From: Candidatus Gastranaerophilales bacterium
Lineage (GTDB): Bacteria > Cyanobacteriota > Vampirovibrionia > Gastranaerophilales > Gastranaerophilaceae
Assembly: GCA_944323165.1 (NCBI GenBank)
Contig: CALURK010000003.1
Span: 62,001 to 126,000, forward strand
Length of the DNA stretch: 64,000 nucleotides
Reading direction: 5' to 3'
In this document: positions 14,784-28,946 of the stretch, piece after piece
Numbering within the stretch: position 1 is the stretch's first letter
Layout of the letters: every line of letters starts with the position of its first letter
Notes under the pieces: generated by a model
Database searches by the model: none
What the model was told of the DNA's origin: nothing
What the model saw: the letters and a program-made list of their open reading frames with translations, nothing else
Program-made: the position numbers and the translations under genes

Positions 14784-15704
14784 ATGAAAACAATTGGCAT
14801 TATAGCTTTATCCGGCGAAGTTGATAAAAATAAGCTTGAACTAGCTGTTATTAACCTTGAAAATTTGGGTTTTAATGTCGTGCTATCTAAAAATATTTTT
14901 GATAAAAAGCGATATCTCGCTGGAGACGATGATACAAAACTCAAAGCTTTATATGATTTTGTTCAAAATCCTGATATTGATTTAATTATGTCAGCAAGGG
15001 GCGGTTATGGCTTAATTAGGCTCGTTAATAAAATTGACTATAGTATTATAAAAAACAATCCAAAACCTTTTGTTGGTTTTTCTGATTTTACGGCTTTGCT
15101 TCTTTTGATTTATAAAAATACCGGCATGATTACCTACCATGGTCCTATGGTTTGTTCGGATTTTGGGTGCGAAGTCTTGACTGACCCCCACCCTAACCCT
15201 CCCCGTTGGAGAGGGGAGGAATCAGCACCCACCCCGGTCCTCCCTCAAAAGGGAGGGGATGATATTTCCTTTACTTATAGAAATTTTTTAAAAGCTCTTA
15301 ATGGTGAGCAATTGAACTTTCAAGGTAATAAAATTTATAAAGAAGGTTCTGCAAACGGTATTATTTGGGGCGGTAATCTTGCAACAGTTGTTTCGCTATG
15401 CGGACAGGACTTTATTCCTGATGAAGATTTTGTTTTCTTTGCAGAGGATTTAAATGAGCCGGCTTACAAAATTGACAGAATGTTTACCCAGCTTTTTAAT
15501 ATAGAAAAATTTAAGGCTAATTGCAAAGGAATTGTTCTTGGAGATTTTCTGGATACAGATAATCAAGAATGGCTGGAAGAATTCTTTTATGCTTTCCCGC
15601 TTCCAACTGCTGGCGGGTTTAAGATTACACACGCAAAGGATAAAATAACAATCCCAATTGGGAAAAAATGTAATCTGGAGAGGGCAAATTTAGTTATATA
15701 TTAA
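14784..15704 (+). CDS. ldcA: Muramoyltetrapeptide (LD-) carboxypeptidase, family S66
   Basis: 306 residues. Cytoplasmic serine peptidase that removes the terminal D-Ala from recycled murein tetrapeptides. Nucleophile Ser100 is in PFVGFSDFTALL; the family Glu lies in FAEDLNEPAYKIDRM and the His in FKITHAKDK, completing a Ser-His-Glu triad. Start ATG is chosen over an upstream TTG because it sits at the predicted transcription start. Oddity: residues about 133-160 (DPHPNPPRWRGE and PTPVLPQKGGDD) are encoded by two palindromic repeat units inserted in frame between HGPMVCSDFG and FTYRNFLKAL, where relatives have a short loop. Confidence 0.9.
   Translation: MKTIGIIALSGEVDKNKLELAVINLENLGFNVVLSKNIFDKKRYLAGDDDTKLKALYDFVQNPDIDLIMSARGGYGLIRLVNKIDYSIIKNNPKPFVGFSDFTALLLLIYKNTGMITYHGPMVCSDFGCEVLTDPHPNPPRWRGEESAPTPVLPQKGGDDISFTYRNFLKALNGEQLNFQGNKIYKEGSANGIIWGGNLATVVSLCGQDFIPDEDFVFFAEDLNEPAYKIDRMFTQLFNIEKFKANCKGIVLGDFLDTDNQEWLEEFFYAFPLPTAGGFKITHAKDKITIPIGKKCNLERANLVIY
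15185..15260 (+). repeat. Two REP-like palindromic units inside ldcA
   Basis: Unit 1 begins CCCCACCCTAACCCTCCCC and folds on CCTCCCC/GGGGAGG. Unit 2 folds on CCTCCCT/AGGGAGG. Total length keeps the reading frame open. The same head sequence recurs near 28772 outside any gene. GC content is far above the surroundings. Confidence 0.85.
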
Positions 15705-15732: not shown

Positions 15733-16000
15733 TTAAAACCGTACCACTGCCTATCGAACTACAGCCAAATTGATTTTGCTTATAAAACCTACTTCTTAAA
15801 ACTATAACACCCGCAAGGATTACCTTAGTGCTGCTATGTTTCCATCCTGACACGGTTCGATATCTTACGCCATCATATTCTAAGCTATCAACAATCCTAT
15901 AAACATAGGCAATCTGCCTGTAACCCTCACAGCAGGCTCTGCACCTCGCATAAAGCGTTCGAGTCGAGAGATCCGCTAAGTCCCCGTGGAGTACGGCAAC
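15733..16000 (-). ncRNA. ffs: Signal recognition particle RNA, large bacterial form
   Basis: On the minus strand the 5' part reads GCCGTAC-TCCACGGGG-ACTTAGCGG and later GCGAGGTGCAGAG, matching the conserved 5' (Alu-like) end of large bacterial SRP RNAs. The Ffh-binding core follows: GTCAGG, a short AUG/CAU stem closed by a GAAA tetraloop, then AGCAGCAC. The 3' end GTGGTACGG pairs with the 5' CCGTAC-CAC to close the molecule, followed by TTTTAATT. Length about 268 nt, as in Gram-positives and cyanobacteria with the Alu domain, not the 4.5S form. The exact ends are estimates. A 110-codon open frame over it is spurious. Confidence 0.88.
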
Positions 16001-28681: not shown

Positions 28682-28946
28682 ATTAAAAAACTTCCTTTTC
28701 TGCTATATTTTGCCGCAGTAAAAGAAAGCTACTTACAAAACTGTGACTCGCAGTATTGTTTTAAGATTAGCCCCCACCCTAACCCTCCCCCTACGAAGGG
28801 AGGGGACGAAAGCTCTTTGAGCATTCTGACTTTTACAGCTGCGGCACAGTCACGGAATTTCACCGTTGTTTCCTCGTATTCGGTTTTATTTAATAGTATG
28901 ATAATCAGAATTTGTTGTCAAAATTTTGTTATATAATATTCTTATT
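28682..28946. other. Intergenic stretch with a REP-like unit
   Basis: 265 bases between divergent genes. It holds the second copy of the GC-rich palindromic unit, flanked by imperfect inverted segments (CTGTGACTCGCAG near 28741 and CTGCGGCACAGTCAC near 28839). A TATAAT box at 28932-28937 lies next to the MATE start. No coding potential was seen. Confidence 0.6.
28772..28806. repeat. REP-like palindromic unit, intergenic copy
   Basis: CCCCACCCTAACCCTCCC head shared with the units inside ldcA; folds on CCTCCC/GGGAGG. Confidence 0.85.

Follow-up and report, generated by a model that had tools for sequence, protein, structure and literature searches.

BoxC-like palindromic repeats bracket genes for DUF559 nucleases across many phyla, a finding that is new here, and two such repeats lie in frame inside ldcA, the gene for a cell-wall LD-carboxypeptidase, of a gut Candidatus Gastranaerophilales bacterium. 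The partner of these palindromes was not visible from the window alone (64,000 nucleotides of contig CALURK010000003.1) and is most likely the DUF559 nuclease. Our best reading is that DUF559 nucleases probably mobilise the palindromes or are copied together with them; the association is observed directly, and the movement mechanism is inferred.

BoxC-like units in ldcA and elsewhere in the genome

The gene, its two units and a further copy in the window are the following:

14784-15704, plus strand: ldcA, LD-carboxypeptidase (peptidase S66; Pfam matches to PF02016 and PF17676)
15185-15220, plus strand: palindromic unit 1, BoxC-like, CCCCCACCCTAACCCTCCCCGTTGGAGAGGGGAGGA; second loop TTA on the G-rich strand
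15224-15259, plus strand: palindromic unit 2, BoxC-like, AGCACCCACCCCGGTCCTCCCTCAAAAGGGAGGGGA; second loop CCG on the G-rich strand, head AGCACCC
28771-28806, plus strand: solo repeat copy, intergenic, outside any open reading frame (from the head match and a riboswitch search)

The preliminary description had placed two palindromic units in frame inside ldcA, and this is what we find: the frame is open throughout 14784-15704, both the N- and the C-terminal Peptidase_S66 domains were detected (Pfam), and the two GC-rich units of 36 bp each can be read directly between HGPMVCSDFG and SFTYRNF. Residues were indeed added in frame, but the net gain amounts to about 30 residues rather than the 28 or so proposed earlier. 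The genome (G000) gave a single ldcA match, the interrupted gene being the sole copy found, and the enzyme with its insert is presumably active. Directly after ldcA, at 15739-15996 on the minus strand, lies a bacterial large SRP RNA (87.7 bits).

The BoxC repeat of E. coli (also PIT or TM_ECO) is an intrastrand triplex motif with the spacers TTA in type A and CCG in type B (Holder et al., 2015, PMC4666352). Its architecture of a C-rich block, a loop, a G-rich block, a 3-base spacer and a second G-rich block is found in both units; the reverse complement of unit 1 reads CCTCCCC-TCTCCAAC-GGGGAGGG-TTA-GGGTGGGGG, and the spacer of unit 2 is CCG. By these spacers, unit 1 is type A and unit 2 type B of Holder et al. 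The likeness thus covers the three C/G-rich blocks, the TTA or CCG spacer and the dispersed copies, whereas the blocks deviate slightly from the E. coli repeat and the copies studied here lie in frame inside conserved genes. We call the units BoxC-like because they do not match the exact E. coli consensus CCCTCNCCCN3-6GGGNGAGGGN3GGGNGAGGG, the blocks in unit 1 being CCTCCCC and GGGTGGGGG.

The 19-base head of unit 1 is repeated exactly at 28772-28790, whereas 100 dinucleotide shuffles gave no match even at three mismatches. At up to two mismatches it occurs at 21 places genome-wide, with none for the reversed control; this count is a lower bound, several copies lying near contig ends of the 1.93 Mb draft genome. 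The earlier claims that the first unit recurs outside genes and behaves as a dispersed, mobile-like element are thereby borne out. Unit 2 has the same architecture as unit 1 and no near copy within the window. On the minus strand, a cobalamin riboswitch aptamer (28875-28819; AdoCbl-II, 40.4 bits, gathering score 36.5) is followed immediately on its 3' side by the solo copy at 28771-28806, which presumably belongs to the leader of a minus-strand gene. Further in-frame palindrome copies in this genome were identified in murD and in a prmC-like methyltransferase gene, and a whole DUF559 unit in prmA. A second dispersed palindromic family, GTCATTCCGAACTTGTTTCGGAATCT / GTCATCCTGAATTTATTTCAGGATCT, is interleaved with the BoxC-like copies at several loci (L004, L007, L009-L012, L014, L015, L017, L018).

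DNA folding of the units is unremarkable (z-scores -1.0 to -1.8), and an Rfam search of the ldcA insert returned no family above its gathering score. It is therefore the repetition and the empty sites, rather than folding, that identify the insert as a repeat, and on these grounds it is almost certainly a dispersed BoxC-like repeat. The gene was matched in 64 of 77 related genomes, where most matches split at residues of about 131 and 162 with almost nothing between, and the alignment to the solved LdcA 6uuk (128 to 179, 158 to 181) leaves no room for an insert. Among 30 genes in which the loop was read, 18 were empty, as had been anticipated for close relatives, 9 carried palindrome-derived inserts and 3 were unclear. 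Far from sharing one conserved loop, several relatives carry other palindromes at this place, the subtypes being PHPNPPRWRGE in our genome, PSPLPSPAGRG in G020, PFPLSPSHKGRG in G031 and PPPDPLLKGEG in the group of G003 and G044. On an ldcA tree built without the loop, the presence of the insert required five changes (Fitch) and must therefore reflect repeated gain and/or loss. The ldcA loop is a recurrent insertion site.

DUF559 genes bracketed by the repeats

The best matches of the ldcA units lead to DUF559 (PF04480) genes. Unit 1 matched best the bracket of the DUF559 gene in G002 (local score 32 of 39 bases) and unit 2 that in G007 (local score 28), with a shuffled maximum of 12 in each case. 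Likewise, among about 110 DUF559 loci, the ldcA insert of G020 was matched best by the bracket around the DUF559 gene of G020 itself (37 of 45). For unit 1, the exact cognate bracket is present in relatives and absent from G000, which counts against co-mobility. The three DUF559 genes of G000 are each flanked by their own repeat subtype in inverted orientation.

A scan of public genomes added 80 more DUF559 loci from the Gastranaerophilales, several proteobacterial classes, Chloroflexi, Flavobacterium, Patescibacteria and others. When the 300 bases upstream were locally aligned with the reverse complement of the 300 bases downstream, a score of at least 16 was reached by 75 of 109 loci, compared to 0 of 332 shifted windows of those loci and 16 of 300 mismatched pairs; the loci are non-independent samples, and all Gastranaerophilales sequences come from draft genomes. 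Direct, non-inverted flank similarity was also frequent (49/109), and the flank test alone does not fix the orientation because a palindrome resembles its own reverse complement. The asymmetric head is more telling in this respect: among 104 distinct loci it was found upstream on the minus strand 30 times and on the plus strand 16 times, and downstream on the plus strand 36 times and on the minus strand 8 times. With a narrow pattern of the head, for which 0.003 matches are expected per window and strand, it faces inward on both sides in 22 of the 104. At locus L024, after position 1830, about a dozen type-C repeats stand in tandem directly downstream of the DUF559 gene.

Among 31 genomes outside the genus, repeats were identified only in G074, which has 29 copies and a full-length DUF559 gene, and once in G061. 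Within the genus the link is weaker, with a median repeat count of 8 versus 2 (p 0.014, uncorrected for kinship). Many repeats were also found in genomes with no detected DUF559 gene, such as G026 (30) and G044 (26), an absence that is not firm because the family search missed the E. coli control although MG1655 carries ycjD. Among the papers naming DUF559 or ycjD in an incomplete open literature, none links either to palindromic repeats in its title or the opening of its abstract.

Yet another category of copies consists of DUF559 units nested in frame within host genes, namely prmA (4), hydF (4), murD (2), a helicase gene (2) and a radical-SAM gene (1) in the relatives and, for prmA, in G000, with one further unit at the start of an epimerase gene (1). 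Host domains around the nuclease were confirmed by Pfam in the five nested proteins scanned. The nested nucleases mostly lack a start codon of their own: in seven of eight copies there is no methionine near the nuclease start, and the eighth has one 20 residues before it. No splicing domain, as an intein would have, was found in six nested or stand-alone DUF559 proteins scanned with Pfam. Since murD and prmA are single-copy in nearly every genome searched, the interrupted genes are the sole copies found. The nested host enzymes are presumably active. In G000 a full DUF559 unit lies near residue 59 of prmA (G000:C27:10500-11401, L287); the contig ends inside the gene, and its C-terminal part was not found in the genome. 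The prmA-DUF559 flank sequence of L149, a locus named Acinetobacter sp., is the same as that of contig 73 of the Gastranaerophilales genome G016, and L149 is probably misnamed or misbinned.

The nested nucleases are under purifying selection, with dN/dS values of 0.05-0.13, similar to those of their hosts, where dS is finite; many dS values are saturated and the estimates are rough. The same insertion site is reused, with empty alleles, in murD and prmA, and the hydF site is common to four species. When the murD genes of G029 and G036 are compared, a single difference is seen in the 333 bases of the nuclease, against 49 in 675 and 39 in 585 bases of the two flanks (about 7%; 88/1260 in all). 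This local contrast (p 2e-8) is consistent with the unit having been transferred or converted recently on its own. In G019, whose murD is nearly identical to that of G036, the nuclease has been lost between two CCGGAG repeats and about 77 palindrome residues are kept in frame, which suggests one way in which solo palindromes can be left behind.

Proposed mechanism and alternative explanations

We suggest that a family of BoxC-like repeats, each with a C-rich head, a 3-base spacer and then a hairpin, travels with DUF559 genes. The full unit would consist of a palindrome, the gene for DUF559, a small Vsr-like PD-(D/E)XK nuclease, and an inverted palindrome, and solo palindromes would be its non-autonomous form or remnants. 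Most likely, the nuclease would nick or cut DNA, and host repair would then copy the repeat, either by itself or together with the gene, into the break, much as homing endonucleases spread their genes. We favor such nuclease-started copying because of the relationships that the DUF559 profile shows: it matches the mobile intron protein 3r3p, a nuclease (E 9.8e-6), and the PADLOC homing-endonuclease model HEase (2.7e-6). DUF559 may recognise or cut the palindrome or its target, a copying step may follow, and a role for the nuclease as mobiliser of the repeats is fairly probable. In ldcA, two head-to-tail solo copies would have landed in a tolerant loop and been retained because the frame stays open.

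The system shares features with several known ones. The nuclease domain is related by profile to the EDxHD homing endonucleases (I-Bth0305I, 3r3p), and ShiLan is likewise an endonuclease insertion that is not spliced and leaves the reading frame of its host open (PMC11855218). Here, however, neither an intron nor an intein is involved; the nuclease is bracketed by BoxC-like palindromes and lies in the frame of the host, whereas in ShiLan it is out of frame. The earlier comparison with Rickettsia palindromic elements holds for the effect, palindromic repeats in frame in conserved genes, but not for size: the units here are 36 bp, and the available part of PMC10969869 describes elements of about 150 bp in ten families and names no nuclease partner. 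A gene bracketed by inverted palindromes and accompanied by dispersed solo copies also recalls REP sequences, with the difference that the partner of these is a RAYT, a Y1 tyrosine transposase, and here a PD-(D/E)XK Vsr-like nuclease.

We also considered other explanations for the findings. That the palindromes are themselves REPs moved by a Y1 transposase is suggested by their shortness, inverted pairs and solo copies, and Y1_Tnp genes occur in many relatives. However, the REP-associated transposase raised in the preliminary description gave no match in G000 (PF01797, Y1_Tnp, 0), and the brackets enclose DUF559 rather than Y1_Tnp, which makes this explanation very improbable. Less probable still is a proline-rich loop that arose by ordinary protein evolution in ldcA and resembles a repeat by chance. 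Short proline-rich segments do occur in relatives at this position, but these also match DUF559 brackets, and we rejected this explanation on the exact 19-base identity to dispersed non-coding copies.

A more serious alternative, although an unlikely one, is mere co-location, in which DUF559 processes, or is regulated by, hairpin or triplex repeats that are spread by slippage, recombination or another enzyme. This would agree with genomes such as G026 and G044, which carry repeats but no detected DUF559 gene, with the local amplification seen in tandem arrays beside DUF559 (L024) and with the published link of triplex motifs to rearrangement (PMC4666352). Two-sided bracketing in many phyla is nevertheless expected of a co-mobile unit and not of proximity, and the matching of subtypes between repeats and brackets, the insertion of whole units in six kinds of host gene and the locally low divergence of the murD nuclease all speak against co-location. 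It is also conceivable, at a low probability, that the nested nucleases are useful domains acquired by MurD, HydF and PrmA and not parasites: they are as constrained as their hosts and have persisted in hydF while dS became saturated. Their patchy occurrence in several unrelated hosts, the repeats at their edges and the loss in G019 argue otherwise. Joint mobilisation with DUF559 thus remains our preferred explanation. We are evenly divided on the wider proposal of a class of mobile elements in which a Vsr-like DUF559 nuclease and its bracketing BoxC palindromes form the moving unit in many phyla, inserting in frame in essential enzymes and producing the nuclease only as an internal domain of the host, with the solo palindromes of ldcA as footprints.

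BoxC and ycjD in Escherichia coli

In E. coli, BoxC has counted as an orphan repeat since the 1990s. According to Holder et al., transposase or integrase activity has never been found around the motif (PMC4666352). That study reports no mobility gene near its copies, whereas here DUF559 genes are bracketed by the repeats. One of the E. coli copies, copy 9 of MG1655 (1351204-1351239; PMC4666352), lies between ycjD (1351407-1351760), annotated as a DUF559 gene, and fabI. The BoxC repeat is located only downstream of ycjD, which counts against bracketing. In PMC1189080, YcjD is placed in the PD-(D/E)XK superfamily and matches Vsr by profile.

If DUF559/YcjD is the partner of BoxC, E. coli K-12, in which both are present, offers a direct test of where the BoxC-type palindromes of many phyla come from. 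A second, nuclease-based route for the spread of short palindromes would then stand beside the RAYTs, and single-copy essential enzymes would be shown to accommodate the in-frame entry of an entire nuclease gene with no splicing involved.

Strains of E. coli that lack ycjD were considered as an empty site and set aside as not clean, an efflux pump being located at that position (PMC12817139); the tauD-hemB region, a second candidate for presence and absence of BoxC, was not clean either. Insertion with duplication and deletion between repeats look alike at the pstB-pstA spacer, where AACCGTGT (8 bases) stands at both ends of a segment of 92 bases that holds BoxC in MG1655 and is absent in other strains (L290 versus L294 and L295).
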